Shown here: piece after piece, positions 1 through 57,339 of the stretch | Layout of the letters: every line of letters starts with the position of its first letter | How positions within the stretch are numbered: the first letter of the stretch is position 1 | Assembly (NCBI GenBank): GCA_964036045.1 | Contig: OZ038379.1 | Location: forward strand, 105,850,025 to 105,914,024 | From: Eutreptiella sp. 'Long Island Sound 2002' | Lineage: Eukaryota; Euglenozoa; Euglenophyceae; Eutreptiales; Eutreptiaceae | Direction of reading: 5' to 3' | DNA length: 64,000 nucleotides | Notes under the pieces: model-generated | What the model saw: only the letters and a program-made list of their open reading frames with translations | Database searches by the model: none | What the model was told of the DNA's origin: nothing | Translations under genes and position numbers: made by a program

Positions 1-285
1 GTACTTGATGGTGGGATACCCACTCACCCCTTGCTCTGAGCAAAGGTCCTTCTCCACAGTGCAATCCACATCCCCGACGAAAACCGACTTGTGATCCGCA
101 TACTCCTTGGCAAGCGAATCCCAAGCTGGCTTCATCCTCTTGCAGTGGCCTCACCAAGGAGCCTGGAACTTCACAAACGCGTTCTTGCCACTGTCAAGAA
201 CTTCGCTTGCAAAGTTCGCCTTTGTCAATGACATGGCACAGGCATTGACGAGCAGCGTCACAATAACAAGCCCTCGCAGTAGCAT
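1..285 (-). CDS. Sec-containing PDI/thioredoxin-domain protein, copy 1 (partial)
   Basis: The window begins inside this gene, so the C-terminal half and the 3' UTR are missing. The ATG is at 283-285 and the in-frame TGA (selenocysteine) is at 151-153. Sequence from the signal peptide through the active site and into the DVDC segment is the same as in copy 2. Confidence 0.85.
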
Positions 286-2943
286 GGTCTGAAGAAAGGG
301 GTATCGGTATTGTGGGGCGGTGTTTGCACAAGGTTTTTGTGCAGCTCCACAAGGCATCGTGGTCTGGAACACAAAGCATCTCAGCATCTCACTCAAGGCC
401 CTCCACAGACATGAGTCTTCTGTCTCATGGAACTTTGTATTCGTCGTGTTGGTTCTCGAACCTTGGGCCCTTTGTTTGTTTGTTTGTTCAGTGGCCTATC
501 GGTCCTCGCCGTTGGCCTCCAAGTCCCTCTAGCATGAATAAATAAAAACTGCCTGCATAACCCTGACTGCTTGTGGTCTCGAGACTGGAGATGGACCGTA
601 TCTTGAAAGAGTAGCAATGTAATGAGCCGCAGCTGACGATCTCCAGTGTGTCAAACAATTGGATGGACACCATCCATGCCCAGATACAACACACCCTTGT
701 CTATCAAACAGGTTGTGTGGAGCCCCTCCCCCATTTAGAAATGGAAGCGAAAGGCTGTGTGTTAGTCATGTGGAATCGACAATAGAAAACAAAGCGGGCA
801 GGATGCAATACTACGGACACAGTTGAGTATGGTCTTCGATGTGTGAATGCATTGGAGTGGCTTAGAAATGTCAAAAGTCAAGTGATAGAGCAGAAGGCAA
901 AGCGAAATCGAAAAGGGGGTGTGAATGGACAAGCAATGGGACTGGTGGCAGTATGCACATGCAAATGCATCCATGATGAAATTGAAGCTGCATATGCATA
1001 CTGCCCCACAATATTCTGCTCTCCGATGGGGAAGGGAAAGCCACCACATCTGGGCCAAAGGGTTGTTCACATGCAAAAAAAGACACAGAAGATGACTTCT
1101 CTCAATGGATAGCATCGTGGCCGATGATGTGATGTGCTATACTTGCATCCTATGTTGCCTTGCACGCCTTCGATGCTTGAGGCTGTTGTGCCGTTTTAGA
1201 ACCTTGTGCCATTATTATCTAAACAAAAAAACACAGGCAGACTTGTCCTCTGGGCAGGAACCCACAATACCTGCCAAATTGTTTAATCCACAACCACAAT
1301 GGAAGACGTTGAGCCTTACCATCTCTAGTTGGTCAACTGGTTGTGGAATCACTTTGCTGTTGCGAGTCAGAAAGAAGTCTTGAACGTATGCTGTGACATG
1401 ATGACTTGTTGAAAAGGCGCAGAGAGTCAGACTGGAGACATAGTCAATCTCACTAGCATACTAGCATTGAGGACAGAAGCTGTCTTGGGCTATCAACAAT
1501 CCATTGGTGCACCACATTCCCTTCTGATTTAGTGAATGGCAGCTTTTGGGCCCACATATTGGTGTGAAATGTGGTCATCAATGCTGCCACTGGTATCGTT
1601 GGTTGACAACGAACAGGAACCTAGAGAATAATGCTTTGGTCCAATACCCATGGTGATGTTGCCTCCCCCCCATTTTGCATGGTTGGTATTGCCCCACACT
1701 CAAGAGTGGCAAAAAGCTCCATGGTGCACGGGGCTGGCAGTAGCATCCCCCCCCAGATCCCATGTCAGATGGGGTTCAAATCATCAGAAGCCACATCCCC
1801 CATTGAATGGCCACAATGTCATCCAGAAGGTCAGGCAATCATTAAAAAAACGAAAAGCTAATTTTTGCCAACACCAAAAACCTTTTCAGGGCCTCGGCAA
1901 TGGGACGCACACAGATGAGAGCTCCTCTGCCCTATTCAGCACCTGGCCCTGCTCACTAACCCCTCAACTGCATGATTCCGACCAGAAAATGGTGAGACAA
2001 GGAGGCCTTTCTCGCTTTTTGGTCAGTGCGGTCGGAACAACTTCTCTCAGTCTTCCTTTAAGTGCTTAAGCAGGCCAGTATGCAAGCTTGCCATGTGGCC
2101 ACAAGCGGCATATATCCAGCTGATCACATTCAATGTGTTTCTTAGATCAGGTCGTGTGAAATGATGTGCCGTCGGGATGGGGCATTAATTTTTGTTGTGC
2201 GCTATTGAGCCCCCATCCCCTTTCCCACTCCACTTCCCCAACAAACAGCCACCACAAAAGCGGAATAAAACCGCCAACACTAAAAATCAATCTTGAAAAA
2301 CATACTTGAGAGAAAACCAGGAAGGGCAATTTGGCTTCAAAACAGAGCCCTGCACAGATGCTTCTGCAAAGGGCTTCACAAGCACAAGCAGCAAAGAAAA
2401 AAGCAGTCAGTGACTACCCAGCCACCTTCTGTTGAGTGCCGCAAACCCCTGCGCCCAAGCGGCAGCAAAACATCACTGGTCTGCTTACAACAGGCACTTC
2501 ACACAAGCAGTCGAGAAAAAGAACCTGCACCACTGCACGTATCCTCCTGGTCCAGCCCCTTCCGCATTGCAGTCCCATTGGTATTCACTATGTGGAGGCA
2601 CCAGGCAAGACCGCAGCTGGAGGGGCTCCACTGCATGGCACATGCACAAACGGTTTGCAATAACACTGGCCAGAGCCCGGGCAACGCTCTGCTGCAGTCA
2701 GCAGACTTCTTGTTATTGGACAGGACCGTGCCCACTGTGCCAGCACACACAAAGTGCAGGTTTCGGCGTGTCATGGAGGGCGCACACAGGGCCTACACAT
2801 GACGCTTGCAATACCTCCTTAGCGAAGGGGTGCATCGATTGGCAATTGTTTTTAAGAGAACGGGACCATTCCCTTCCCTTGCACAATCTGTTTGTTGCCT
2901 GCATTGATTACCCTCAGTCTGAGCCCCACACAAACAAATGGAA

Positions 2944-2999
2944 TTCCGGCTGGCCAGAGCGCAGCAATGATGGAATTGCGCTTTATCTGACCGCCTTCA
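2944..2999 (-). promoter_or_regulatory. Candidate SECIS element, copy 2
   Basis: It lies in the 3' UTR, 92-147 nt past the stop. Read on the minus strand it has ATGA, then 12 nt, then an unpaired AA, ending with GGAA. A lower stem pairs GGC and GGTCAG with CTGGCC and GCC (one bulged A). An ATAA bulge follows on the 5' side, then a stem AGCGC/GCGCT and an apical loop. The UGAA/GGAA pair allows the tandem G.A/A.G core of SECIS elements, and AA sits at the expected distance. A helix below the core is not clear. Confidence 0.6.
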
Positions 3000-3090
3000 T
3001 GGAAGGTGCATGGCACTCATTCACAGGCAGCAATCCAGTGCTGCAACCACACCATGCTCAAGAATAGAAACAGACCCCTGCATCAGCTGC

Positions 3091-3651
3091 TCAGTTAAGC
3101 TGTTTCAGGATAGCAATGCGCTGTCCAACAAACTTGGGGTCCTTAACAAACTTGTTGCCCTTCAGCTTCTGGACAGCCTCCAGCTTCTCCTTGCGTTCTT
3201 CAGGGGTCAGCTCCTTCATCTTTTTGATGTACGAGATCTCCTTCTTCGAGCAGTCGGCGAGGGTGTTCACGTCACACCTGGTCTTGTCCAGAGTCTCTGC
3301 AGTGAAACTCTGCAACTCCTCAAGCTCTCGACCACCGTTGTAGTCCTTCTTCTCCCCGTCCACCCAGTACTTGATGGTGGGATACCCACTCACCCCTTGC
3401 TCTGAGCAAAGGTCCTTCTCCACAGTGCAATCCACATCCCCGACGAAAACCGACTTGTGATCCGCATACTCCTTGGCAAGCGAATCCCAAGCTGGCTTCA
3501 TCCTCTTGCAGTGGCCTCACCAAGGAGCCTGGAACTTCACAAACGCGTTCTTGCCACTGTCAAGAACTTCGCTTGCAAAGTTCGCCTTTGTCAATGACAT
3601 GGCACAGGCATTGACGAGCAGCGTCACAATAACAAGCCCTCGCAGTAGCAT
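3091..3651 (-). CDS. Sec-containing PDI/thioredoxin-domain protein, copy 2
   Basis: Reference copy for the array: 186 residues if the internal TGA (3517-3519) is read as selenocysteine. Residues 1-18 form a signal peptide (MLLRGLVIVTLLVNACAM), so the product should enter the secretory pathway. A thioredoxin fold follows (~20-130). Its active site, at residues 42-49, reads APW-U-GHCK; Sec45 takes the place of the first cysteine and Cys48 is the partner. The cis-proline motif GYPT (Pro91) and the DVDC segment are typical of PDI a-domains. The tail (131-186) is Lys/Glu-rich and helical in character, and there is no KDEL-type ending (last residues KQLN). Expected role: thiol-disulfide exchange in the ER, with a selenolate as nucleophile. 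The start was chosen because it gives the signal peptide and directly follows a splice acceptor. The stop is TGA. Sec-containing PDI proteins are known from haptophyte algae. Alternatives: a pseudogene family or a TGA=Cys code, both less likely. Confidence 0.88.
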
Positions 3652-3668
3652 GGTCTGAAGAAAGGGGT
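3652..3668 (-). promoter_or_regulatory. 3' splice acceptor just before the start codon
   Basis: On the minus strand a pyrimidine tract runs into an AG, then ACC and the ATG (CCCCTTTCTTCAG/ACCATG). The same tract is present before every copy, including copy 10, where the DNA only ~50 nt further upstream is different. It could be the acceptor of a leader intron or of spliced-leader trans-splicing. I cannot choose between them from the sequence. The leader upstream contains several ATGs, which splicing here would remove. Confidence 0.5.
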
Positions 3669-6325: not shown

Positions 6326-6381
6326 TTCCGGCTGGCCAGAGCGCAACAATGATGGAATTGCGCTTTATCTGACTGCCTTCA
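6326..6381 (-). promoter_or_regulatory. Candidate SECIS element, copy 3
   Basis: Same fold as in copy 2. Here the upper stem is a perfect 7 bp (AGCGCAA with TTGCGCT) because one loop-side base differs. One G to A change in the lower stem gives an A-C mismatch. Confidence 0.6.
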
Positions 6382-6472
6382 TGGAAGGTGCATGGCACTC
6401 ATTCACAGGCAGCAATCCAGTGCTGCAACCACACCATGCTCAAGAATAGAAACAGACCCCTGCATCAGCTGC

Positions 6473-7033
6473 TCAGTTAAGCTGTTTCAGGATAGCAATG
6501 CGCTGTCCAACAAACTTGGGGTCCTTAACAAACTTGTTCCCCTTCAGCTTCTGGACAGCCTCCAGCTTCTCCTTGCGTTCTTCAGGGGTCAGCTCCTTCA
6601 TCTTTTTGATGTACGAGATCTCCTTCTTCGAGCAGTCGGCGAGGGTGTTCACGTCACACCTGGTCTTGTCCAGAGTCTCTGCAGTGAAACTCTGCAATTC
6701 CTCAAGCTCTCGACCACCGTTGTAGTCCTTCTTCTCCCCGTCCACCCAGTACTTGATGGTGGGATACCCACTCACCCCTTGCTCTGAGCAAAGGTCCTTC
6801 TCCACAGTGCAATCCACATCCCCGACGAAAACCGACTTGTGATCCGCATACTCCTTGGCAAGCGAATCCCAAGCTGGCTTCATCCTCTTGCAGTGGCCTC
6901 ACCAAGGAGCCTGGAACTTCACAAACGCGTTCTTGCCACTGTCAAGAACTTCGCTTGCAAAGTTCGCCTTTGTCAATGACATGGCACAGGCATTGACGAG
7001 CAGCGTCACAATAACAAGCCCTCGCAGTAGCAT
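6473..7033 (-). CDS. Sec-containing PDI/thioredoxin-domain protein, copy 3
   Basis: Sec TGA at 6899-6901, stop TGA, C-terminus KQLN. The protein equals copy 2. Silent differences include GAA for GAG before LQSF (shared with copies 6 and 7) and GGG for GGC in KGNK. SECIS candidate at 6326-6381. Confidence 0.87.
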
Positions 7034-9708: not shown

Positions 9709-9764
9709 TTCCGGCTGGCCAGAGCGCAACAATGATGGAATTGCGCTTTATCTGACTGCCTTCA
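9709..9764 (-). promoter_or_regulatory. Candidate SECIS element, copy 4
   Basis: Same sequence as copy 3 (perfect 7-bp upper stem, A-C mismatch in the lower stem), same distance from the stop codon. Confidence 0.6.
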
Positions 9765-9855
9765 TGGAAGGTGCATGGCACTCATTCACAGGCAGCAATC
9801 CAGTGCTGCAACCACACCATGCTCAAGAATAGAAACAGACCCCTGCATCAGCTGC

Positions 9856-10416
9856 TCAGTTAAGCTGTTTCAGGATAGCAATGCGCTGTCCAACAAACTT
9901 GGGGTCCTTAACAAACTTGTTCCCCTTCAGCTTCTGGACAGCCTCCAGCTTCTCCTTGCGTTCTTCAGGGGTCAGCTCCTTCATCTTTTTGATGTACGAG
10001 ATCTCCTTCTTCGAGCAGTCGGCGAGGGTGTTCACGTCACACCTGGTCTTGTCCAGAGTCTCTGCAGTGAAACTCTGCAACTCCTCAAGCTCTCGACCAC
10101 CGTTGTAGTCCTTCTTCTCCCCGTCCACCCAGTACTTGATGGTGGGATACCCACTCACCCCTTGCTCTGAGCAAAGGTCCTTCTCCACAGTGCAATCCAC
10201 ATCCCCGACGAAAACCGACTTGTGATCCGCATACTCCTTGGCAAGCGAATCCCAAGCTGGCTTCATCCTCTTGCAGTGGCCTCACCAAGGAGCCTGGAAC
10301 TTCACAAACGCGTTCTTGCCACTGTCAAGAACTTCGCTTGCAAAGTTCGCCTTTGTCAATGACATGGCACAGGCATTGACGAGCAGCGTCACAATAACAA
10401 GCCCTCGCAGTAGCAT
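9856..10416 (-). CDS. Sec-containing PDI/thioredoxin-domain protein, copy 4
   Basis: Sec TGA at 10282-10284, stop TGA, C-terminus KQLN. The protein equals copy 2, with GGG in place of GGC for the Gly of KGNK as a silent change. SECIS candidate at 9709-9764. Confidence 0.87.
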
Positions 10417-13091: not shown

Positions 13092-13147
13092 TTCCGGCTG
13101 GCCAGAGCGCAACAATGATGGAATTGCGCTTTATCTGACCGCCTTCA
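13092..13147 (-). promoter_or_regulatory. Candidate SECIS element, copy 5
   Basis: Best-paired version: 7-bp upper stem and lower stem with GGTCAG/CTGGCC fully paired. Confidence 0.62.
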
Positions 13148-13238
13148 TGGAAGGTGCATGGCACTCATTCACAGGCAGCAATCCAGTGCTGCAACCACAC
13201 CATGCTCAAGAATAGAAACAGACCCCTGCATCAGCTGC

Positions 13239-13799
13239 TCAGTTAAGCTGTTTCAGGATAGCAATGCGCTGTCCAACAAACTTGGGGTCCTTAACAAACT
13301 TGTTCCCCTTCAGCTTCTGGACAGCCTCCAGCTTCTCCTTGCGTTCTTCAGGGGTCAGCTCCTTCATCTTTTTGATGTACGAGATCTCCTTCTTCGAGCA
13401 GTCGGCGAGGGTGTTCACGTCACACCTGGTCTTGTCCAGAGTCTCTGCAGTGAAACTCTGCAACTCCTCAAGCTCTCGACCACCGTTGTAGTCCTTCTTC
13501 TCCCCGTCCACCCAGTACTTGATGGTGGGATACCCACTCACCCCTTGCTCTGAGCAAAGGTCCTTCTCCACAGTGCAATCCACATCCCCGACGAAAACCG
13601 ACTTGTGATCCGCATACTCCTTGGCAAGCGAATCCCAAGCTGGCTTCATCCTCTTGCAGTGGCCTCACCAAGGAGCCTGGAACTTCACAAACGCGTTCTT
13701 GCCACTGTCAAGAACTTCGCTTGCAAAGTTCGCCTTTGTCAATGACATGGCACAGGCATTGACGAGCAGCGTCACAATAACAAGCCCTCGCAGTAGCAT
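13239..13799 (-). CDS. Sec-containing PDI/thioredoxin-domain protein, copy 5
   Basis: Sec TGA at 13665-13667, stop TGA, C-terminus KQLN. I see no amino-acid difference from copy 4. SECIS candidate at 13092-13147. Confidence 0.87.
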
Positions 13800-16475: not shown

Positions 16476-16531
16476 TTCCGGCTGGCCAGAGCGCAACAAT
16501 GATGGAATTGCGCTTTATCTGACCGCCTTCA
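16476..16531 (-). promoter_or_regulatory. Candidate SECIS element, copy 6
   Basis: Identical to copy 5 through the core, AA bulge and both stems. Confidence 0.62.
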
Positions 16532-16622
16532 TGGAAGGTGCATGGCACTCATTCACAGGCAGCAATCCAGTGCTGCAACCACACCATGCTCAAGAATAGA
16601 AACAGACCCCTGCATCAGCTGC

Positions 16623-17183
16623 TCAGTTAAGCTGTTTCAGGATAGCAATGCGCTGTCCAACAAACTTGGGGTCCTTAACAAACTTGTTCCCCTTCAGCTT
16701 CTGGACAGCCTCCAGCTTCTCCTTGCGTTCTTCAGGGGTCAGCTCCTTCATCTTTTTGATGTACGAGATCTCCTTCTTCGAGCAGTCGGCGAGGGTGTTC
16801 ACGTCACACCTGGTCTTGTCCAGAGTCTCTGCAGTGAAACTCTGCAATTCCTCAAGCTCTCGACCACCGTTGTAGTCCTTCTTCTCCCCGTCCACCCAGT
16901 ACTTGATGGTGGGATACCCACTCACCCCTTGCTCTGAGCAAAGGTCCTTCTCCACAGTGCAATCCACATCCCCGACGAAAACCGACTTGTGATCCGCATA
17001 CTCCTTGGCAAGCGAATCCCAAGCTGGCTTCATCCTCTTGCAGTGGCCTCACCAAGGAGCCTGGAACTTCACAAACGCGTTCTTGCCACTGTCAAGAACT
17101 TCGCTTGCAAAGTTCGCCTTTGTCAATGACATGGCACAGGCATTGACGAGCAGCGTCACAATAACAAGCCCTCGCAGTAGCAT
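16623..17183 (-). CDS. Sec-containing PDI/thioredoxin-domain protein, copy 6
   Basis: Sec TGA at 17049-17051, stop TGA, C-terminus KQLN. It shares a 2-nt change in the leader (GTGCC instead of GTGGT near 17258) with copy 7, so these two neighbours are probably recent duplicates. SECIS candidate at 16476-16531. Confidence 0.87.
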
Positions 17184-19859: not shown

Positions 19860-19915
19860 TTCCGGCTGGCCAGAGCGCAACAATGATGGAATTGCGCTTT
19901 ATCTGACCGCCTTCA
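19860..19915 (-). promoter_or_regulatory. Candidate SECIS element, copy 7
   Basis: Identical to copy 5 through the core, AA bulge and both stems. Confidence 0.62.
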
Positions 19916-20006
19916 TGGAAGGTGCATGGCACTCATTCACAGGCAGCAATCCAGTGCTGCAACCACACCATGCTCAAGAATAGAAACAGACCCCTGCATC
20001 AGCTGC

Positions 20007-20567
20007 TCAGTTAAGCTGTTTCAGGATAGCAATGCGCTGTCCAACAAACTTGGGGTCCTTAACAAACTTGTTCCCCTTCAGCTTCTGGACAGCCTCCAGC
20101 TTCTCCTTGCGTTCTTCAGGGGTCAGCTCCTTCATCTTTTTGATGTACGAGATCTCCTTCTTCGAGCAGTCGGCGAGGGTGTTCACGTCACACCTGGTCT
20201 TGTCCAGAGTCTCTGCAGTGAAACTCTGCAATTCCTCAAGCTCTCGACCACCGTTGTAGTCCTTCTTCTCCCCGTCCACCCAGTACTTGATGGTGGGATA
20301 CCCACTCACCCCTTGCTCTGAGCAAAGGTCCTTCTCCACAGTGCAATCCACATCCCCGACGAAAACCGACTTGTGATCCGCATACTCCTTGGCAAGCGAA
20401 TCCCAAGCTGGCTTCATCCTCTTGCAGTGGCCTCACCAAGGAGCCTGGAACTTCACAAACGCGTTCTTGCCACTGTCAAGAACTTCGCTTGCAAAGTTCG
20501 CCTTTGTCAATGACATGGCACAGGCATTGACGAGCAGCGTCACAATAACAAGCCCTCGCAGTAGCAT
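20007..20567 (-). CDS. Sec-containing PDI/thioredoxin-domain protein, copy 7
   Basis: Sec TGA at 20433-20435, stop TGA, C-terminus KQLN. This is the last left-subfamily copy before the TIR transposon, which sits in the spacer 1.5 kb upstream of it. SECIS candidate at 19860-19915. Confidence 0.87.
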
Positions 20568-22054: not shown

Positions 22055-22063
22055 TTCAAATCA
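22055..22063. repeat. Left target-site duplication of TIR transposon
   Basis: TTCAAATCA, matching the empty site in other units. Confidence 0.75.
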
Positions 22064-22085
22064 GGGCATTTGGTGAAACCTAGTA
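22064..22085 (+). repeat. Left terminal inverted repeat
   Basis: Begins GGGCATTTGG and ends GTGAAACCTAGTA; pairs with 27290-27311. Confidence 0.75.
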
Positions 22086-22464
22086 TGCACGTAGCAAAAC
22101 CTAGTAAAATGTAGCAAAACCTAGTAAAATTTTTTTTTAAAAAAAAATTTTTTACTAGGTAAAAAAAGAAAATATTTCCAAATTTTTTCCCTTACTAGGT
22201 TACTAGGTAGTGACAAATTTGGACTTGAATTTGAACAAAAAACACCAAGTTTATGGGGGGGGGGGGGGTCAACGGTAGGTGGTATTTATGTTTAAGGGCA
22301 TGGTGCCCCCTGGTCTATTCCAGGCCACTTGTGTAAGTGGCGCGCCACCCGGGCCAAACCGTGTATTGCAAGGTCAGAAAAAATTAAATGAGGCTCAAGA
22401 AAAGAAGGAGCTTTTATATCATAAATATATATATATACATATATGAGGTGCACACATGTGTGCT

Positions 22465-23106
22465 TTATATGAAGTCGCAAAACACGCGCTTGTAGATGAG
22501 GTCCGACTTCTTATCTTTGTAGGTGGGTTGTGCACAGGGAGGGTTGTGCTTGCACATGTTGCGAATCACGCCCGTGGTCTTTTCTTCCAACTCTTTGATT
22601 AGCTTTTTGTCATACTCCAATTTCCCAGAGGCATCTTTGGGGTAATGCTCTGGAACAAAAAATTCTTCACCACGGATCACCACCTTTGGACGGACCTCAT
22701 CTACAGAACGCGGCTTGTCAACCACAAGCCGGTCACCCAAGGCGAATGCCAACACAATGCATGCGAGTGTGGCAGTAAATTGCACTCTCCATTTGCGCAA
22801 GGCCACACATATCTCCGTGGAACAGAAACCGGAAGCATGCAGGGCACACTGATAAACTCCACATTCAGGGCACGTGATGTGAGTTGTGTCGTCGCAAAAA
22901 AAGCACGACGAACGGCTGGGTGAACAATAGGGCGTAGCATACATCCGTGCCAAGGCCCAACTGGGTGTGGTCTCAATAGGGGGGGCATGCGGAGAACTGG
23001 GATAGGGCAAAGCTGCCTGTGCAATCTCACGCAACAACCACAATCTGTCTTGTGGAAGTTGGATGCTACCGTTGACAACACGCCTAGACAAAAGGCAATG
23101 TAGCAT
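22465..23106 (-). CDS. Unrecognised Cys-rich ORF inside the transposon
   Basis: An open frame of ~213 codons from the first ATG; the same frame is open further to 23205. Two distinct parts are visible. The middle holds a zinc-ribbon-like cluster (CFFC, seven residues, CPEC, then further Cys and His). It recalls the C-terminal Cys-rich domains of some transposases, but I cannot assign a family. After it a hydrophobic stretch (TATLACIVLAFALG) looks like a signal peptide or membrane segment, followed by ~95 charged residues with three Cys near the end. The two parts may be different exons or captured gene fragments joined in one frame. It ends at TAA near an AT microsatellite (22421-22445). The function is unknown. 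Confidence 0.35.
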   Translation of the reverse strand: MLHCLLSRRVVNGSIQLPQDRLWLLREIAQAALPYPSSPHAPPIETTPSWALARMYATPYCSPSRSSCFFCDDTTHITCPECGVYQCALHASGFCSTEICVALRKWRVQFTATLACIVLAFALGDRLVVDKPRSVDEVRPKVVIRGEEFFVPEHYPKDASGKLEYDKKLIKELEEKTTGVIRNMCKHNPPCAQPTYKDKKSDLIYKRVFCDFI

Positions 23107-23249
23107 CAGAAGGCAGGCAGGATGGCAGCTCACACCGTCGTCCTGATGTAGGAAGGTGGAGTAGAGGGGGGCTATAGCAAAAGCTACACTGCCGAACTCA
23201 CCCAAAAACTTGTCCCACCTCTTCTGCGCCCTTGCCTTAATGCCTTCTT

Positions 23250-26200
23250 GTGGGCAAATTGGCTACCTCACCCCTGCCGTATCGGGGAGCCCCACCGCTT
23301 CAGAGCGGGGGGCAAAATCAGAAGTGGCCCACAAGTGGGCAAACTGGCTACCTCACCCCTGCCGTATCGGGGAGCCCCACCGCTGCAGAGCGGGGGGCAA
23401 AATCAGAAGTGGCCCACAAGTGGGCAAACTGGCTACCTCACCCCTGCCGTATCGGAGATCCCCACCGCTTCAGAGCGGGGGGCAAAATCAGAAGTGGCCC
23501 ACAAGTGGGCAAAGTGGCTACCTCACCCCTTCCGTATCGGGGAGCCCCACCGCTGCAGAGCGGGGGGCAAAATCAGAAGTGGCCCACTAGTGGGCAAATT
23601 GGCTACCTCACCCCTGCCGTATCGGGGATCCCCACCGCTGCAGAGCGGGGGGCAAACTCAGAAGTGGCCCACAAGTGGGCAAAGTGGCTACCTCACCCCT
23701 GCCGTATCGGGGAGCCCCACCGCTGCAGAGCGGGGGGCAAAATCAGAAGCGGCCCACTAGTGGGCAAACTGGCTACCTCACCCCTGCCGTATCGGGAATC
23801 CCCACCGCTGCAGAGCGGGGGGCAAAATCAGAAGCGGCCCACTAGTGGGCAAACTAGCTACCTCACCCCTGCCGTATCGGGGATCCCCACCGCTGCAGAG
23901 CGGGGGGCAAAATCAGAAGTGGCCCACAAGTGGGCAAACTGGCTACCTCACCCCTGCCGTATCGGGGATCCCCACCGCTGCAGAGCGGGGGGCAAAATCA
24001 GAAGTGGCCCACAAGTGGGCAAACTGGCTACCTCACCCCTGCCGTATCGGGAATCCCCACCGCTGCAGAGCGGGGGGCAAAATCAGAAGTGGCCCACAAG
24101 TGGGCAAACTGGCTACCTCACCCCTGCCGTATCGGGGAGCCCCACCGCTGCAGAGCGGGGGGCAAAATCAGAAGTGGCCCACAAGTGGGCAAACTGGCTA
24201 CCTCACCCCTGCCGTATCGGAGATCCCCACCGCTTCAGAGCGGGGGGCAAAATCAGAAGTGGCCCACAAGTGGGCAAAGTGGCTACCTCACCCCTTCCGT
24301 ATCGGGGAGCCCCACCGCTGCAGAGCGGGGGGCAAAATCAGAAGTGGCCCACTAGTGGGCAAATTGGCTACCTCACCCCTGCCGTATCGGGGATCCCCAC
24401 CGCTGCAGAGCGGGGGGCAAACTCAGAAGTGGCCCACAAGTGGGCAAAGTGGCTACCTCACCCCTGCCGTATCGGGGAGCCCCACCGCTGCAGAGCGGGG
24501 GGCAAAATCAGAAGCGGCCCACTAGTGGGCAAACTGGCTACCTCACCCCTGCCGTATCGGGAATCCCCACCGCTGCAGAGCGGGGGGCAAAATCAGAAGC
24601 GGCCCACTAGTGGGCAAACTAGCTACCTCACCCCTGCCGTATCGGGGATCCCCACCGCTGCAGAGCGGGGGGCAAAATCAGAAGTGGCCCACAAGTGGGC
24701 AAACTGGCTACCTCACCCCTGCCGTATCGGGGATCCCCACCGCTGCAGAGCGGGGGGCAAAATCAGAAGTGGCCCACAAGTGGGCAAACTGGCTACCTCA
24801 CCCCTGCCGTATCGGGAATCCCCACCGCTGCAGAGCGGGGGGCAAAATCAGAAGTGGCCCACTAGTGGGCAAACTGGCTACCTCACCCCTGCCGTATCGG
24901 GGATCCCCACCGCTGCAGAGCGGGGGGCAAAATCAGAAGTGGCCCACAAGTGGGCAAATTGGCTACCTCACCCCTGCCGTATTGGGGATCCCCACCGCTG
25001 CAGAGCGGGGGGCAAAATCAGAAGTGGCCCACAAGTAGGCAAACTGGCTACCTCACCCCTGCCGTATCGGGGATCCCCACCGCTGCAGAGCGGGGGGCAA
25101 AATCAGAAGTGGCCCACAAGTGGGCAAACTGGCTACCTCACCCCTGCCGTATCGGGGATCCCCACCGCTGCAGAGCGGGGGGCAAAATCAGAAGTGGCCC
25201 ACAAGTGGGCAAATTGGCTACCTCACCCCTGCCGTATCGGGGATCCCCACCGCTGCAGAGCGGGGGGCAGAATCAGAAGTGGCCCACAAGTGGGCAAATT
25301 GGCTACCTCACCCCTGCCGTATCGGGGATCCCCACCGCTGCAGAGCGGGGGGCAGAATCAGAAGCGGCCCACTAGTGGGCAAACTAGCTACCTCACCCCT
25401 GCCGTATCGGGGATCCCCACCGCTTCAGAGCGGGGGGCAAAATCAGAAGTGGCCCACAAGTGGGCAAACTGGCTACCTCACCCTTGCCGTATCGGGGATC
25501 CCCACCGCTGCAGAGCGGGGGGCAAAATCAGAAGTGGCCCACAAGTGGGCAAATTGGCTACCTCACCCCTGCCGTATCGGGGAGCCCCACCGCTGCAGAG
25601 CGGGGGGCAGAATCAGAAGTGGCCCACAAGTGGGCAAATTGGCTACCTCACCCCTGCCGTATCGGGGATCCCCACCGCTGCAGAGCGGGGGGCAAAATCA
25701 GAAGTGGCCCACAAGTGGGCAAACTGGCTACCTCACCCCTGCCGTATCGGGGATCCCCACCGCTTCAGAGCGGAGGGCAAAATCAGAAGTGGCCCACAAG
25801 TGGGCAAACTGGCTACCTCACCCCTGCCGTATCGGGAATCCCCACCGCTACAGAGCGGGGGGCAAAATCAGAAGCGGCCCACAAGTGGGCAAATTGGCTA
25901 CCTCACCCCTGCCGTATCGGGGAGCCCCACCGCTGCAGAGCGGGGGGCAAAATCAGAAGTGGCCCACAAGTGGGCAAACTGGCTACCTCACCCCTGCCGT
26001 ATCGGGGAGCCCCACCGCTTCAGAGCGGGGGGCAAAATCAGAAGTGGCCCACAAGTGGGCAAATTGGCTACCTCACCCCTGCCGTATCGGGGATCCCCAC
26101 CGCTGCAGAGCGGGGGGCAAAATCAGAAGTGGCCCACAAGTGGGCAAACTGGCTACCTCACCCTTGCCGTATCGGGGATCCCCACCGCTGCAGAGCGGGG

Positions 26201-27093
26201 GGCAAAATCAGAAGTGGCCCACAAGTGGGCAAATTGGCTACCTCACCCCTGCCGTATCGGGGAGCCCCACCGCTGCAGAGCGGGGGGCAGAATCAGAAGT
26301 GGCCCACAAGTGGGCAAATTGGCTACCTCACCCCTGCCGTATCGGGGATCCCCACCGCTGCAGAGCGGGGGGCAAAATCAGAAGTGGCCCACAAGTGGGC
26401 AAACTGGCTACCTCACCCCTGCCGTATCGGGGATCCCCACCGCTTCAGAGCGGAGGGCAAAATCAGAAGTGGCCCACAAGTGGGCAAACTGGCTACCTCA
26501 CCCCTGCCGTATCGGGAATCCCCACCGCTACAGAGCGGGGGGCAAAATCAGAAGCGGCCCACAAGTGGGCAAATTGGCTACCTCACCCCTGCCGTATCGG
26601 GGAGCCCCACCGCTGCAGAGCGGGGGGCAAAATCAGAAGTGGCCCACAAGTGGGCAAACTGGCTACCTCACCCCTGCCGTATCGGGGAGCCCCACCGCTT
26701 CAGAGCGGGGGGCAAAATCAGAAGTGGCCCACAAGTGGGCAAATTGGCTACCTCACCCCTGCCGTATCGGGGAGCCCCACCGCTTCAGAGCGGGGGGCAA
26801 AATCAGAAGTGGCCCACTTGTGGGCAAGGTGGCTACTTAACCCCTGCCGTATCGGGGAGCCCCACCGCTGCAGAGCGGGGGGCAAAATCAGAAGTGGCCC
26901 ACAAGTGGGCAAACTAGCTACCTCACCCCTGCCGTATCGGGGATCCCCACCGCTTCAGAGCGGGGGGCAAAATCAGAAGTGGCCCACAAGTGGGCAAACT
27001 GGCTACCTCACCCCTGCCGTATCGGGGAGCCCCTCCGCTTCAGAGCGGGGAGCAGAATCAGAAGTGGCCCACAAGTGGGCAAGGTGGCTACCC
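23250..27093 (+). repeat. 85-bp satellite array, 45 units, inside transposon
   Basis: Units begin GTGGGCAAA and end GGCCCACAA, and differ at a few variable sites (GGAGCC/GGGATC/GGAATC, CACAAG/CACTAG, GCTGCAG/GCTTCAG). Each unit contains a stem-forming stretch (CCGCT GCAG AGCGG, extended by flanking C and G runs), and its two ends are complementary (GTGGGC and GCCCAC). Because 85 is not a multiple of 3 and no frame has a stop, long plus-strand ORFs (up to 1196 codons) arise in the array. Higher-order copying is visible: the rare variant GGAGATCC occurs at ~23455 and ~24220 (9 units apart), and CGGAGGGC at ~25771 and ~26451 (8 units apart). Confidence 0.97.
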
Positions 27094-27289
27094 AGTAACC
27101 TAGTTAAAAAAAAATTTTGTTTTCACTAGGTTCTGAAACCTAGTAAAAACAAAAACTTTTTTTTACTAGGTTTTGAAACCTAGTAAAAAAAAAACTTTTT
27201 TTTTTAATAGGTTCCCAATACCTAGTAAAAAAACCTGTTACCTAGTAAACTGTTACCTGGTAAAAGAAAATTTTTAAAAAAATTTTTTT

Positions 27290-27311
27290 TACTAGGTTTC
27301 ACTACAGACCC
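27290..27311 (-). repeat. Right terminal inverted repeat
   Basis: On the minus strand it begins GGGTCTGTAG and ends GTGAAACCTAGTA, with 4 mismatches to the left repeat. Confidence 0.75.
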
Positions 27312-27320
27312 TTCAAATAA
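27312..27320. repeat. Right target-site duplication of TIR transposon
   Basis: TTCAAATAA, one mismatch to the left copy. Unit sequence resumes directly after it. Confidence 0.75.
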
Positions 27321-28494: not shown

Positions 28495-28550
28495 TTCCGG
28501 CTGGCCAGAGCGCAACAATGATGGAATTGCGCTTTATCTGACCGCCTTCA
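28495..28550 (-). promoter_or_regulatory. Candidate SECIS element, copy 8
   Basis: Identical to copy 5 although the gene belongs to the TAA-stop subfamily, so the element is conserved across both groups. Confidence 0.62.
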
Positions 28551-28641
28551 TGGAAGGTGCATGGCACTCATTCACAGGCAGCAATCCAGTGCTGCAATCA
28601 CACCATGCTCAAGAATCGAAACAGACCCCTGCATCAGCTGC

Positions 28642-29202
28642 TTAGTCAAGCTGTTTCAGGATAGCAATGCGCTGTCCAACAAACTTGGGGTCCTTAACAA
28701 ACTTGTTCCCCTTCAGCTTCTGGACAGCCTCCAGCTTCTCCTTGCGTTCTTCAGGGGTCAGCTCCTTCATCTTTTTGATGTACGAGATCTCCTTCTTCGA
28801 GCAGTCGGCGAGGGTGTTCATGTCACACCTGGTCTTGTCCAGAGTCTCTGCAGTGAAACTCTGCAACTCCTCAAGCTCTCGACCACCGTTGTAGTCCTTC
28901 TTCTCCCCGTCCACCCAGTACTTGATGGTGGGATACCCACTCACCCCTTGCTCTGAGCAAAGGTCCTTCTCCACAGTGCAATCCACATCCCCGACGAAAA
29001 CCGACTTGTGATCCGCATACTCCTTGGCAAGCGAATCCCAAGCTGGCTTCATCCTCTTGCAGTGGCCTCACCAAGGAGCCTGGAACTTCACAAACGCGTT
29101 CTTGCCACTGTCAAGAACTTCGCTTGCAAAGTTCGCCTTTGTCAATGACATGGCACAGGCATTGACGAGCAGCGTCACAATAACAAGCCCTCGCAGTAGC
29201 AT
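28642..29202 (-). CDS. Sec-containing PDI/thioredoxin-domain protein, copy 8
   Basis: Sec TGA at 29068-29070. The stop is TAA and the last residue is Asp (KQLD), unlike copies 2-7. One replacement is present: Val to Met in the segment DxNTLADC of the tail. SECIS candidate at 28495-28550. It lies between the TIR transposon (in the spacer downstream) and the gag-pol retroelement (in the spacer upstream). Confidence 0.87.
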
Positions 29203-30820
29203 GGTCTGAAGAAAGGGGTATCGGTATTGTGGGGCGGTGTTTGCACAAGGTTTTTGTGCAGCTCCACAAGGCATCGTGGTCTGGAACACAAAGCATCTCA
29301 GCATCTCACTCAAGGCCCTCCACAGACATGAGTCTTCTGTCTCATGGAACTTTGTATTCGTCGTGTTGGTTCTCGAACCTTGGGCCCTTTGTTTGTTTGT
29401 TTGTTCAGTGGCCTATCGGTCCTCGCCGTTGGCCTCCAAGTCCCTCTAGCATGAATAAATAAAAACTGCCTGCATAACCCTGACTGCTTGTGGTCTCGAG
29501 ACTGGAGATGGACCGTATCTTGAAAGAGTAGCAATGTAATGAGCCGCAGCTGACGATCTCCAGTGTGTCAAACAATTGGATGGACACCATCCATGCCCAG
29601 ATACAACACACCCTTGTCTAGCAAACAGGTTATGTGGAGCCCCTCCCCCATTTAGAAATGGAACAGACAGGCTGTGTGTTAGTCATGTGGAAACGACAAT
29701 AGAAAACAAAGCGGGCAGGATGCAATACTACGGACACAGTTGAGTATGGTCTTCGATGTGTGAATGCATTGGAGTGGCTTAGAAATGTCAAAAGTCAAGT
29801 GATAGACCAGAAGGCAAAGCGAAACCGAAAAGGGGGTGTGAATGGACAAGCAATGGGACTGGTGGCAGTATGCACATGCAAATGCATCCATGATGAAATT
29901 GAGGCTGCATATGCATACTGCCCCACAATATTCTGCTCTCCGATGGGGAAGGGAAAGCCACCACATCTGGGCCAAAGGGTTGTTCACATGCAAAAAAAGA
30001 CACAGAAGATGACTTCTCAATGGATAGCATCGTGGCCGATGATGTGATGTGCTATACTTGCATCCTATGTTGCCTTGCACGCCTTCAATGCTTGAGGCTG
30101 TTGTGCCGTTTTAGAACCTTGTGCCATTATTATCCAAACAAAAAAACACAAGCAGACTTGTCCTCTGGGCAGGAACCCACAATACCTGCCAAATTGTTTA
30201 ATCCACAACCACAATGGAAGACGTTGAGCCTTACCATCTCTAGTTGGTCAACTGGTTGTGGAATCACTTTGCTGTTGCGAGTCAGAAAGAAGTCTTGAAC
30301 GTATGCTGTGACATGATGACTTGTTGAAAAGGCGCAGAGAGTCAGACTGGAGACATAGTCAATCTCACTAGCGTATTAGCATTGAGGACAGAAGCTGTCT
30401 TGGGCTATCAACAATCCATTGGTGCACCACATTCCCTTCTGATTTAGTGAATGGCAGCTTTTGGGCCCACATATTGGTGTGAAATGTGGTCATCAATGCT
30501 GCCACTGGTATCGTTGGTTGACAACGAACAGGAACCTAGAGAATAATGCTTTGGTCCAATACCCATTGTGATGTTGCCTCCCCCCCATTTTGCATGGTTG
30601 ATATTGCCCCACACTCAAGAGTGGCAAAAAGATCCATGGTGCACGGGGCTGGCAGTAGCATCCCCCCCAGATCCCATGTCAGATAGGGTTGAAGTGATTC
30701 CTACCTCTCCTCCCTTGCAGGCACTGCACTAATGTAGTCTTGTCGCACAATGCAAAGTCGGGGTCGGTGTAGCATGGCCCCTTCCTAGCAATCTCCCCCT
30801 TCCCCCCCTCCTCCCCTCAC

Positions 30821-32731
30821 TCATCCCCCTGTAGCCGCCCATCGCATGGGAACCAGCTGCGGCTTGTTCTGAGCCTTCGCCACCAGGCAGGTAGCCCATG
30901 TCTGTGCATGCATTACAGTATGATTCTGGAACTCAAAAATTCTGGACGGGTGATCCGTTGGATTCATTTTTGACCGGACGTAGCTCAAGCGCATTTGCAG
31001 TCTTCCCCACCTAAGGACGTGTCCCAGCCTTCTTAGTGCCCTGCCCCTCCACGGGTTTCCTACCGCTCCAGTCATTCTGATTGTGGACCATATTGCAGCC
31101 AAATTGTCAGCTTCAACGTGAATTGTTGGCAGTTTCATGTGTGCTGCCAGTTTTACTGCATTGACAATCGCCATCAGCTCCGCTGTCTGTTGAGAGTTTA
31201 CCCAATGGGGGAGGATGGCAATGCGACAGCCCAGGCTTGGCCCCCATGTCGCCGCCACATACCCGTATCTGAACTTCGCTGCATCCGCATACCATGTGTG
31301 GTGTGGGTCAATACACTCTGGCGCCCACCACGGGGCAACACTGACTGCCAGCGCCTCGCACAGGGACCGTAGCACTCTCGGAGGGGTGTATGGCGCGCAT
31401 GGGGGTCCCCAAATCGGCCAGGCCATGGGCCCTTGGAGAAAAGGAAGTGCCTGTCTGCCTGGAGTTGCCGCCCACAGCGTTTTTCCTATGACTCTTCTGA
31501 GGTGTTCCTCTATGTATGTGCAGCATGCCAGATGGAGCCAACCCTTCAGAGTTTGGGCTATGTAGGTATGTGTCTGCTGCATGGAAAAATCGCGGCCATC
31601 TATTTTCTTGCCCAGCCATGCAATGCACGAAATTGGCTCAAGTACAGACTTTGGGGACACAACCCACCCTACCTCCTACAAGTCGCGGGCCACTTCAGCT
31701 GTGTCATGTCTCAGGATATCAATGGAGACCGACGGCAAGAGGACGTCATCTAAATATTGGATTAAAATAACCTGATCTGGGTGCTTCAGGGACAGGTATC
31801 TGGCAAGCGTCCCTATGGCAACGATCGGGCTAAAAGCCCACCCAAAAGGCAAAGAGGGAACAAAATAAGACATCCCGTTCACTCAGAACCGGATTGATCT
31901 TCGAAACTCGTTTGGGACCTTGCAAGCCCAATACATATTAGAGATGTCGAGTTTAGTAAAGAATAGTTTCAGATGTGCAGTCTTAGATACAGAGAACAAA
32001 TTTCCAAGCTGGGACAGGGATGGGAGTTTGAAGGGGATGGGTTTTATGAGCGCAGGGTTCGGCGCCCTTGGGTCAGCAATGAGCGCCCCTTTCAGGGCGT
32101 TCGTGCTCTTAGCGAAAGCTCTGAACGTGGACGGTCCTCCCTCGGCATCTGGGACTAGTAGCCCATCGTCGCACATCCTCGATGCCAACGCCGCCAGGCC
32201 TGCATCCTTAGTGTCACCTTGGTCGGGCAGGTTAGCCAACACCAACGGCAGTGCACTCGGGACATGTTTATTCCAGATATCCATGGGGATGGGCACTTCC
32301 CCCGCCAGCCCCAGCCCCTTCGCCCCGATGGCCGGGTCTAGTGGGCCGGGTGGCCATGGGGTACCATCATAGGGGTCATAGTCCTCCTCATCAAGGTCCT
32401 CATGGGCTAGGGCCTGGAGGATAGCAATAATATCATTGATCACTGCTCTCACATCTCTCATTCTGCCCCATGACCTGTTGATTGTCATCATGGCGCAGTC
32501 CCGCAACAATCCAGCAATCGTCCCCGCCTGTTGCCTGAAGCCACTGCTCAGGGCTGTCTTCTTTATCTGTTTCCGTAGTCTCTTCGTCTGTGGTCCCAGC
32601 CTGCCCTCGACTTGCAAACATCTGCATGTGTCTTGGTACCGGGTGCTTGTATTTTCCTTGCCTTGTAGGCGCACAGAGGTCATAACCATTGTGTGGGTCC
32701 CCGTCTTTCCCGGGCATCTTAGTTTGCACAA
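30821..32731 (-). pseudogene. Reverse transcriptase-RNase H with two in-frame stops
   Basis: One frame of ~636 codons interrupted only by TGA at 31883-31885 and TAG at 31673-31675. RT motifs appear in order: FFTKLDISNMYW, LPFGWAFSP, and the catalytic YLDDVLL; then a connection region with SPKSVLEP. RNase H follows, with TWYADAA, ELMAI, EADNLAA and the closing NPTDHPSR giving its acidic residues. It copied RNA to DNA when active. The two nonsense codons in an otherwise intact frame indicate recent loss. The true stop is TGA at 30821. Between 30690 and 30820 nothing further is recognised. Confidence 0.75.
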
Positions 32732-33088
32732 GCTGTACCTTAACGTCCGGGTAGGGGGTCTCCCCTGATGGCTGGTGGGCTCATTTCTCGGTTAGGAATA
32801 GCCTCCGCTTTGACTTCTCTCCCCGCTGGTGTTGCCCGCCCCCCCTCTTTTGGCTCGAGTCCGGGCTTGGGGGGGTGGTGTCCACCTCACAGTCGATGGG
32901 GCTGTTTCTTTGCGGTGTGGACGTGCTGTGGGCTGGTGCTCCATCCTCCTTACTTGTCGCCGTGTCCAGGCACCGCTCCGCCACTGTCTCGAGTCTCATC
33001 TACTCCATCCCCCCCGCCCTCTCCAGTCTCCTGCCCCACCTCCCCACTGCTCTCTCAGGGGGCTGGGGGGGGGAGTTGCAAGTGGCTC

Positions 33089-33778
33089 TCAATTATCGCT
33101 GATATCTTCTTCCATTGCCCTTTCCGTCTCCCCATGGGCGGTTGGCACAGTGGCTGTGTCCCCTCCCGCCGGCTCTCTCCAAACTGCCTCATCTCCTACG
33201 TCGTCTGTGGGCAGTGACCCGTCCGATGAGGATTCTGATGATGATGACAGCTCAGCAAGCTCTTTCCCTAGTTCTTTTCCTTTCTGAGCTTTGCCTGCCC
33301 CTGAGGGGGGGGGGGGGGGGCTCGGAGCCAACTTTATTGGCCCTGCCTCGCGGGTCCAGGGATCGTCGGGCCACAGTTCCTTTGTGCGGACTGATACCCC
33401 TCCCATGTCCCTTCCTGGGAAGCCAGAGAAGGATTCAGGGTATGGGAGGGAGAGGAATTCTGGGACTGACCAGGACTGTGGGCACTTTGCATAGTGTCTA
33501 GCTTGCTTTTCTGTCCTCCATCGTCCCCAGTCTGCCAGCTTTGGTATGGTACCCCCTAGGAGTTTCAAGGTTGCCGCCCCCATGTGCCCAAGGGGATGCC
33601 ATGTGATGGTGCCTCCCGGGGAGTGCTGCAGGCATTCGGCCAGCACCTTTCGAAGCTCGTCCCTCCCCCCGGGCATGATAGGGTATTCCATGGGGGTGTT
33701 GGGGTGGCGTAGTCCGGCCACCTTCTCCATCCCTCCAGGTACGCTTACAGGGGGTCCTGCACCCACTCCTTTTCTCAT
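33089..33778 (-). pseudogene. Linker ORF between Gag and Pol
   Basis: 229 open codons in the same frame as the zinc knuckle and the RT. Composition changes from ordinary to proline-rich (around 33300-33320, a C run), then Ser/Glu/Asp-rich. No protease motif (DTG/DSG) is recognised. From 33088 down to 32732 I see only low-complexity C/T-rich DNA with no supported gene. Confidence 0.4.
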
Positions 33779-34083
33779 TTTTCATCGAAGAACTGGATCC
33801 ATCCTGGGGTGGATATTCCCTCCCGTGACACGCTTTCTGAATCTCCTGCCCGCAAGCGGCATACAATGGCGCATATTGCCAAGAAATATACCTTGGGCCA
33901 TGCCCAGTGTATCCTCGCCCGTCCCAGGTACTCGATACTACTGACACATACACTCGTTCATTGGCATTTTGTGCGGTGATGCTGGCGATTCAAGGATTGT
34001 AGCCAATGCATTGGTTTAACAACAAGGGGGGGTAGTTCCAACTTTTCGAGGAGCCGTAAACTGGCCAGCAATATGGCCGCGGA

Positions 34084-34440
34084 TTACCTGCCTCGTTTTC
34101 TGCTTGCGACGACGTACATGCTGTCGTTGAGAGTGTCCGCCACTGTGGCCGACCTGTCATTTCGTTTGACAAACTGTTTGAGGGCACACAAGCATGTTTT
34201 TCTGGATCCTCCCGCCACTGCTATGGCCGCCAGCTGGAGGTGTCCGTCAGTCCAGTCATCAGCCATGATTTGGTAAAATGTCCGCACCACTGCCCTCAAC
34301 TCGTACATTCGCATGGCCCCCGAAGGTTGGCTCCCTCCCCCGGGTTTCCGTATTGCTGTCCAAATTGGGCTCCCAGCTCCTTGTAGATGTTGGCCATGTG
34401 TTGTTGTGCCGCGACCTGCCCGAAAGGGGGTATGGGACAC
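34084..34440 (-). pseudogene. Gag-region ORF of the retroelement
   Basis: About 118 codons in another frame, overlapping the end of the zinc-knuckle ORF. It ends in a basic stretch (ASRKRGR). Its second half (ADDWTDGHLQLAAIAVAG) looks like coherent protein, so it is probably part of the same polyprotein after a frame change. No domain is recognised. Confidence 0.35.
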
Positions 34441-36184: not shown

Positions 36185-36240
36185 TTCCGGCTGGCCAGAG
36201 CGCAACAATGATGGAATTGCGCTTTATCTGACCGCCTTCA
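36185..36240 (-). promoter_or_regulatory. Candidate SECIS element, copy 9
   Basis: Identical to copy 5; TAA-stop subfamily. Confidence 0.62.
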
Positions 36241-36331
36241 TGGAAGGTGCATGGCACTCATTCACAGGCAGCAATCCAGTGCTGCAACCACACCATGCTC
36301 AAGAATCGAAACAGACCCCTGCATCAGCTGC

Positions 36332-36892
36332 TTAGTCAAGCTGTTTCAGGATAGCAATGCGCTGTCCAACAAACTTGGGGTCCTTAACAAACTTGTTGCC
36401 CTTCAGCTTCTGGACAGCCTCCAGCTTCTCCTTGCGTTCTTCAGGGGTCAGCTCCTTCATCTTTTTGATGTACGAGATCTCCTTCTTCGAGCAGTCGGCG
36501 AGGGTGTTCACGTCACACCTGGTCTTATCCAGAGTCTCTGCAGTGAAACTCTGCAACTCCTCAAGCTCTCGACCACCGTTGTAGTCCTTCTTCTCCCCGT
36601 CCACCCAGTACTTGATGGTGGGATACCCACTCACCCCTTGCTCTGAGCAAAGGTCCTTCTCCACAGTGCAATCCACATCCCCGACGAAAACCGACTTGTG
36701 ATCCGCATACTCCTTGGCAAGCGAATCCCAAGCTGGCTTCATCCTCTTGCAGTGGCCTCACCAAGGAGCCTGGAACTTCACAAACGCGTTCTTGCCACTG
36801 TCAAGAACTTCGCTTGCAAAGTTCGCCTTTGTCAATGACATGGCACAGGCATTGACGAGCAGCGTCACAATAACAAGCCCTCGCAGTAGCAT
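36332..36892 (-). CDS. Sec-containing PDI/thioredoxin-domain protein, copy 9
   Basis: Sec TGA at 36758-36760, stop TAA, C-terminus KQLD. It carries a private silent change in the Leu-Asp-Lys stretch and shares the GGC codon of KGNK with copy 2. The far upstream spacer (37790-38394) is diverged and partly replaced. SECIS candidate at 36185-36240. Confidence 0.87.
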
Positions 36893-39512: not shown

Positions 39513-39568
39513 TTCCGGCTGGCCAGAGCGCAACAATGATGGAATTGCGCTTTATCTGACCGCCTTCA
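39513..39568 (-). promoter_or_regulatory. Candidate SECIS element, copy 10
   Basis: Identical to copy 5 within the element. A base change lies just outside it (GGCGC for GGTGC near 39575). Confidence 0.62.
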
Positions 39569-39659
39569 TGGAAGGCGCATGGCACTCATTCACAGGCAGC
39601 AATCCAGTGCTGCAACCACACCATGCTCAAGAATAGAAACAGACCCCTGCATCAGCTGC

Positions 39660-40220
39660 TTAGTCAAGCTGTTTCAGGATAGCAATGCGCTGTCCAACAA
39701 ACTTGGGGTCCTTAACAAACTTGTTCCCCTTCAGCTTCTGGACAGCCTCCAGCTTCTCCTTGCGTTCTTCAGGGGTCAGCTCCTTCATCTTTTTGATGTA
39801 CGAGATCTCCTTCTTCGAGCAGTCGGCGAGGGTGTTCACGTCACACCTGGTCTTGTCCAGAGTCTCTGCAGTGAAACTCTGCAACTCCTCAAGCTCTCGA
39901 CCACCGTTGTAGTCCTTCTTCTCCCCGTCCACCCAGTACTTGATGGTGGGATACCCACTCACCCCTTGCTCTGAGCAAAGGTCCTTCTCCACAGTGCAAT
40001 CCACATCCCCGACGAAAACCGACTTGTGATCCGCATACTCCTTGGCAAGCGAATCCCAAGCTGGCTTCATCCTCTTGCAGTGGCCTCACCAAGGAGCCTG
40101 GAACTTCACAAACGCGTTCTTGCCACTGTCAAGAACTTCGCTCGCAAAGTTCGCCTTTGTCAATGACATGGCACAGGCATTGACGAGCAGCGTCACAACA
40201 ACAAGCCCTCGCAGTAGCAT
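39660..40220 (-). CDS. Sec-containing PDI/thioredoxin-domain protein, copy 10 (array end)
   Basis: Sec TGA at 40086-40088, stop TAA, C-terminus KQLD. One conservative change lies in the signal peptide (Ile to Val, giving RGLVVVTLL). Only 52 nt of leader match the other copies; from 40273 upstream the DNA is unrelated. This copy must therefore use a different promoter and 5' leader, or be silent. SECIS candidate at 39513-39568. Confidence 0.85.
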
Positions 40221-50400: not shown

Positions 50401-50592
50401 CCATAGGCCCCCACTGGCCCCCATAGGTCCCCATAGGTCCCCAAAGGTGCCAAAAGGCCCCCATAGGTCCCCATAGGCCCCCATAGGTCCCCATAGGCCC
50501 CCATAGGTCCCCAAAGGTCGCCAAAGGTCCCCATAGGTCCCCATAGGCCCCCATAGGCCCCCATAGGCCCCCAAAGGTCCCCATAGGCCCCG
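47450..50592. repeat. 10-bp minisatellite, ~310 units
   Basis: Unit GG(C/T)CCCCATA with variants (GGTGCCCATA, GGCCCCCAAA, GGTCCCCAAA). On the minus strand there is a run of 4-5 G every 10 nt over 3.1 kb, a strong setting for G-quadruplex formation. All minus frames are open, producing repeated decapeptides (theme YGGLWGPMGA) in ORFs up to 582 codons. These follow from the repeat and are not evidence for a gene. Longer internal duplications exist, for example ~48540-48790 and ~48850-49110. Confidence 0.95.
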
Positions 50593-56500: not shown

Positions 56501-56547
56501 ACGGATGTGGTTCCGTCAAATATTTGGGGGCTGTAGACCTCCAAAAT

Positions 56548-57307: not shown

Positions 57308-57339
<32 letters not shown>

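Follow-up and report, generated by a model that had tools for sequence, protein, structure and literature searches.

As listed in Table 1, the window (the whole stretch of DNA analysed here, 64,000 nucleotides at C2:105850025-105914024 of a 2.28-Gb assembly in 2,205 contigs) contains ten copies of a small gene for a protein disulfide isomerase (PDI)-like protein of a Eutreptiella species. Nine of the ten copies are whole, and the leftmost one is clipped by the window edge. The sequence-only reading had given the correct position of the copy at 3091-3651 but no strand. The gene lies on the minus strand, and no PDI is found in the translation of the plus strand of this interval. The minus-strand frame is intronless and 186 codons long, and its sole internal stop is a TGA at codon 45 (MLLRGLVIVTLLVNACAMSLTKANF...FQAPW-TGA-GHCKRMKPAW...LKQLN). 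In its wider context, FVKFQAPW-TGA-GHCKRMKPAW, the TGA takes exactly the place of the first Cys of the PDI motif CGHC. A 20-base pattern of the active site occurs ten times in the window with no mismatch each time, against 0.02 occurrences expected from shuffles.

It was revealed that the array exceeds the window. Twelve copies follow one another head to tail on the same strand (C2:105,843,015-105,890,244), and a 13th full copy lies outside it on contig C21. Thus, the tenfold tandem described earlier is right for the window and falls short of the real array. There are 16 matches in a DNA search of the genome, namely the 12 full copies on C2, the full copy on C21, a decayed partial copy at C2:30106963, and two more distant ones. 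The claim that the TGA sits at the catalytic Cys in every copy was borne out in 10 of 10 copies in the window and 13 of 13 full copies in the genome. The spacing of the copies is 3.33-3.38 kb, apart from two intervals that are enlarged to 8.6 and 7.7 kb. Eight uninterrupted units measure 3366-3384 bp each (a unit of about 3.38 kb), and seven of them share 98.7-99.6% identity with the unit of c04. The array ends with c12, where the unit homology ceases about 56 bp upstream of the ATG.

Table 1. Putative selenocysteine (Sec)-PDI genes and associated elements in the window
Feature	Position in the window	Strand	Remark
Putative Sec-PDI copy c03, 5′ part of CDS	1..285	-	TGA at codon 45; continues beyond the left edge of the window; C2:105849749-105850309
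Putative Sec-PDI copy c04, whole CDS	3091..3651	-	TGA at codon 45; stop TGA
Putative Sec-PDI copy c05	6473..7033	-	stop TGA
Putative Sec-PDI copy c06	9856..10416	-	stop TGA
Putative Sec-PDI copy c07	13239..13799	-	stop TGA
Putative Sec-PDI copy c08	16623..17183	-	stop TGA
Putative Sec-PDI copy c09	20007..20567	-	stop TGA
Putative Sec-PDI copy c10	28642..29202	-	ends GAC TAA
Putative Sec-PDI copy c11	36332..36892	-	ends GAC TAA
Putative Sec-PDI copy c12	39660..40220	-	ends GAC TAA
SECIS-like core of c04	2944..3000	-	ATGAA-helix-AAA-mini-stem-helix-GGAA; 2926-3013 including basal helix
SECIS-like core of c05	6326..6382	-	one G-to-A in helix II; below score threshold
SECIS-like core of c06	9709..9765	-	same G-to-A as c05; below score threshold
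SECIS-like core of c07	13092..13148	-	
SECIS-like core of c08	16476..16532	-	
SECIS-like core of c09	19860..19916	-	
SECIS-like core of c10	28495..28551	-	
SECIS-like core of c11	36185..36241	-	
SECIS-like core of c12	39513..39569	-	one basal-helix base unlike the other copies
Likely trans-splice acceptor of c04	3655..3667	-	CCCCTTTCTTCAG; 3 nt before the ATG

The expectation of a normal thioredoxin fold after the TGA agrees with the domain matches and with a structure model. The array protein has a single PDI-type thioredoxin domain (Pfam Thioredoxin, E 2.9e-27; NCBIfam pdi_dom above the cut-off). The model, made from a 30-row alignment, has a mean pLDDT of 90 and shows a thioredoxin fold followed by three helices; domains of ERp46 and P5 are among the nearest solved structures in a fold search. 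An ERp29 C-terminal domain was detected at E <= 0.01 in 11 of the 30 aligned relatives, with no match in the window protein itself. The N-terminus looks hydrophobic by eye, as it would in a signal peptide.

What do the relatives have at the TGA position? Among the 120 homologues listed out of 1,145, Cys occupies the site in 87, as had been predicted, and Trp in 13. Another 19 start at a Met (M51) six residues past the site, including a fragment of the window's own gene (P0002), and one does not cover the site. It is likely that the Trp and truncated homologues are what a gene caller makes of a TGA. Given the 19 truncated and 13 Trp entries among the 120, gene callers seem to clip or misread this family, and Sec-PDI enzymes are probably under-reported. 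The PDI relatives at four viral loci all have Cys at the site. A transcript presumably of the Euglena gracilis type, to judge from its prefix (P0004, EG_transcript_29064), is 64% identical over 99% of the protein and alike in architecture, but it has CGHC where the array protein would have UGHC encoded with TGA. P0004 reaches at most 63% against each of nine loci compared (seven places, two of them represented twice). A protein of the dinoflagellate Durusdinium trenchii belongs to the same family with 46% identity and bears the source name 'Protein disulfide-isomerase-like protein EhSep2' (P0057); unlike the array protein, it has Cys at the active site.

I performed a protein search of the genome for further PDI genes. 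Among the 43 PDI-like matches, the 13 copies and a gene at C1:67749326 each hold exactly one TGA. Of the others, 28 are without a stop and one has a TAG, and some do not span the active site. The C1 gene is a divergent paralogue (45% identical) with an intronless frame of 214 codons and a TGA at the same codon. Another paralogue, at C2:171904962, reads SGHC with the Ser codon TCA. A Cys paralogue at C19:4091090 has introns, one of them apparently just before the CGHC codons; none is apparent in the Sec and Ser members.

An element resembling a SECIS was noticed by eye 91 nt past the stop codon of the array gene. It reads ATGAA-GGCGGTCAGAT-AAA-GCGCA...TGCGC-TCTGGCCAGCC-GGAA and is flanked by a basal helix of seven pairs. 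A home-made descriptor was then written from general knowledge of SECIS elements; it asks for a TGA quartet, an adjoining helix of at least 8 pairs, an AA 10-13 nt further on, and a GA in the 3′ quartet. Since it was written after the candidates of the array gene and the C1 paralogue had both been seen by eye, its scores are partly circular. In 700-nt 3′ regions, it gave one match each for the array gene (score 8.5) and the C1 paralogue (9.0), and no match in that of the SGHC paralogue. None of 200 shuffles equalled the real score for either region, while 2 of the 200 for the C1 gene reached 8. Eleven of the 13 copies (10 of 12 in the array and the C21 copy) score 8.5, always at +91, and in the array this is the sole match per 2.8 kb downstream. 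The remaining two, c05 and c06, fall under the threshold through the single helix change. No SECIS-like match was found at the decayed copy on C2. In a null set of 254,314 bases (with both strands counted and some loci overlapping), the descriptor gave two matches of at least 7 and none of at least 8. The SECIS fold of the array element has -25.6 kcal/mol against -27.4 for the minimum-energy fold, a gap of 1.8 with the quartet uncredited; for the C1 element, the minimum-energy fold itself shows the helix and mini-stem. Rfam reported no SECIS at the gathering threshold in the whole window, and none among its matches up to E 10 in window positions 286-3090 or in positions 1100-2330 of the C1 paralogue locus. 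It is thus the home-made descriptor alone that predicts the SECIS element expected of a Sec-PDI gene. The top matches of an earlier loose scan (energy-ranked hairpins) were dropped, as their helix did not abut the quartet. In the C1 paralogue, a second, degenerate SECIS-like copy (AGTGACGCTGAAACGCAGACAGCTGG...CCAGCCGAA) was seen by eye after the stop codon and ahead of the full-scoring element.

The genome was also searched for the Sec machinery. There are nine matches to the tRNASec model, four of them over the cut-off. Two are tRNASec(UCA) genes at C3:10893041 and 10896250, which score 72.8 bits against a gathering score of 47. They lie 3.2 kb apart in opposite orientation, are 97% identical over 640 bp, and have the anticodon TCA in ARAGORN. 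A match on C331 (67.3 bits), for which ARAGORN makes no call, and one over the cut-off on C1042, which is called tRNACys, were not counted. In control genomes, the same model matched in 14 of 14 and exceeded the cut-off in five. Exons of SepSecS were found at C4:87303663-87349606; the same search matches 3 of 14 control genomes. A strong SepSecS match on the 45-kb contig C1663 was left uncounted because it may be foreign. With tRNASec and SepSecS both found, the host appears to encode the Sec machinery.

Searches for other selenoprotein families gave no proven second Sec family from SelT/SelW and Sep15/SelM. The SelT/SelW family (PF10262) has seven genome matches; two are interrupted by a TGA and one by a TAG. 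One candidate, C13:18676475, was rejected as its motif is CTGC and the TGA comes only later, and another, on C563, as no CxxU motif was recognised by eye. Both genome matches to Sep15/SelM (PF08806) are without the part that holds the Sec site. A cytosolic GPX-like protein of E. gracilis is called non-selenocysteine in the accessible text of PMC11275057.

Taken together, the locus would be part of a set of 12 functional tandem genes in a euglenid nuclear genome, each encoding a small PDI of the secretory pathway with Sec at position 45. I put the probability of this reading at roughly 90%. Most likely, Sec replaces the catalytic Cys at codon 45, as the sequence-only reading had proposed; the Cys homologues, the SECIS-like element, the tRNASec and SepSecS genes, and the paralogue with the same TGA all speak in favour of it. 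The TGA might instead be a leaky stop: most translation would end after residue 44, and read-through, with Sec, Arg, Trp, or Cys at the site, would yield small amounts of the complete protein. In many eukaryotes Sec is inserted with low efficiency, and a large array could offset poor read-through. However, two diverged gene types have the TGA precisely at the catalytic residue, and both possess a SECIS-like element; mere leakiness is very improbable.

Are the copies pseudogenes, with one nonsense mutation inherited from the founder of the array? The copies are nearly identical, so the 13 TGAs represent one inherited state rather than 13 observations, and a decayed copy does exist on C2. The 13 full copies differ at 13 coding columns, of which seven are silent, five change a residue, and one lies in the stop codon. 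In c01-c09, only two columns vary (336 and 495), and both changes are silent. Thus, the earlier statement that most other changes are silent is true of c01-c09, but across the 13 copies the silent share is just 7 of 13. When eight of the nine regular units were compared (unit 9 was excluded), substitutions were found at 2 of 561 columns of the CDS versus 57 of 2821 columns of the spacer (Fisher P 0.004). The coding sequence of the array is under constraint. The smaller number of variable columns in the CDS and the silent changes in c01-c09 argue against an array of pseudogenes. So do the 214-codon frame of the C1 paralogue, which has kept the TGA at only 45% identity, the SECIS-like elements in both gene types, and the Trp or truncation signature of the relatives. 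A dead array is accordingly given very little weight.

It was found that c01-c09 end with AAC TGA, while c10-c12 and the C21 copy end with GAC TAA. UGA thus appears to be also the terminator in nine array copies. A nuclear code in which TGA means Cys or Trp, selenium not being involved, would open the frame, and Cys would restore CGHC, but it is hardly credible, since only 14 of the 43 PDI-like matches (the C1 paralogue and the 13 copies) hold a TGA in the matched stretch, TGA seems to terminate these nine copies, and the genome has tRNASec(UCA) and SepSecS.

The history of the family was assessed by a quick tree of 54 rows: all 13 Trp rows, 18 of the 19 truncated rows, 20 of the 87 Cys rows, the window protein, and the two paralogues. 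The window's own fragment P0002, the row P0064, and the active-site column itself were omitted. The window gene falls in an eight-row clade (SH-aLRT 99). Its companions there are four truncated rows, three of them close, the Ser paralogue, and the Cys rows P0004 and P0005, which group together inside the clade. Since 23 of the 51 inner branches are open, deep ones included, and the Ser paralogue was flagged for its long branch, conclusions were drawn only for the clade that holds the window gene; the whole tree has 14 label changes. A Cys pair within Sec, Ser, and truncated rows would fit a replacement of Sec by Cys. The clade as a whole would fit a Sec ancestor from which Cys arose once and Ser once.

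How might the genes be expressed? A core sequence of the euglenid spliced leader is printed for Eutreptiella in the available part of PMC3621762, which also reports short 5′ UTRs for Eutreptiella. This core has 3,283 exact matches in the whole genome (1,601 + 1,682), and its reversed control has none, which marks the host as a euglenid and not, like the known Sec-PDI bearers named in the sequence-only reading, a haptophyte. Of these matches, 100 were listed, all on C1, and most of them look scattered. The core copies may include spliced leader RNA genes as well as retrocopies of trans-spliced mRNAs. The sequence CCCTTTCTTCAG-ACC precedes the ATG in all nine whole copies of the window and in c03, and it may be a trans-splice acceptor that leaves a 5′ UTR of 3 nt.

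In the proposed mechanism, the spliced leader would be added to the pre-mRNAs at the CAG directly before the ATG. The Sec-tRNA would decode UGA45 under the control of the SECIS. The protein would consist of a hydrophobic leader, a thioredoxin domain with U45-G-H-C48, and a C-terminal domain of three helices, and the pair of Sec45 and Cys48 would carry out thiol/disulfide exchange in the endoplasmic reticulum faster than a Cys pair. Euglenids control transcription little, and the array would increase the mRNA dose. The terminator of nine copies would be a second UGA, merely about 91 nt before the SECIS. It is conceivable but rather unlikely that this UGA (codon 187) is also read as Sec, which would give two products, one of them longer by the ten residues (AADAGVCFYS) that precede the following stop. 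If this is true, the array is a natural side-by-side test of the minimum distance between a UGA and a SECIS. The copies ending with UGA and those ending with UAA, at a fixed SECIS distance, make a rule of Sec decoding directly testable.

The enzyme itself has precedents. According to the accessible text of PMC6254913, EhSEP2 of Emiliania huxleyi is a Sec-containing PDI-like protein found by 75Se labelling, and it resembles the predicted array protein in having one thioredoxin domain whose CGHC is replaced by UGHC. EhSEP2 is, however, a haptophyte protein for which no array is described in that text, whereas the present protein is predicted from 12 tandem genes of a euglenid. In the available text of PMC7539508, PDI_a is a PDI-like family with a single Sec, present in a Sec, Cys, or other form in all 36 algal genomes, mostly as Cys. 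With EhSEP2 and PDI_a, this kind of enzyme is already known. The same text describes algal clusters of selenoprotein genes of one family with two, two, and three genes (SELENOW, SELENOU, and PRX), compared with 12 here. It also describes ten GPX genes of E. huxleyi, of which eight form four pairs of high similarity, so selenoprotein genes in several copies are nothing new in themselves. The available text of that algal selenoproteome paper contains none of the terms eugleno-, euglena, eutreptiella, and excavat-. Among the titles and abstract beginnings of the papers listed from the open-licence PMC literature, neither a PDI selenoprotein from Euglena or Euglenozoa nor a comparably large tandem array of selenoprotein genes was found. 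As far as this literature goes, the euglenid host, the 12-copy array, and the copies ending with UGA are new. A Sec-PDI and parts of the Sec machinery would now be placed in a euglenid, and a single selenoprotein gene would be able to reach a dozen tandem copies.

Two units of the array carry an insert. One insert of 5.2 kb (window 22063-27312) contains 45 copies of an 85-bp satellite. Its ends are imperfect inverted repeats (AGGGCATTTGGTGAAACCTAGTA / TACTAGGTTTCACTACAGACCCT), and a short target duplication seems to be present. It is apparently a DNA transposon-like element loaded with the satellite. The other insert, of 4.4 kb, lies in another unit (window 30690-35079). It has a minus-strand frame (30824-31660) with only sub-threshold matches, to the C-terminal part of a viral polymerase and to a reverse transcriptase-like domain (RVT_3). 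Further along, at 47454-57311 of the window, about 314 copies of a 10-bp minisatellite run directly into arrays of a 52-bp satellite with palindrome-like units.
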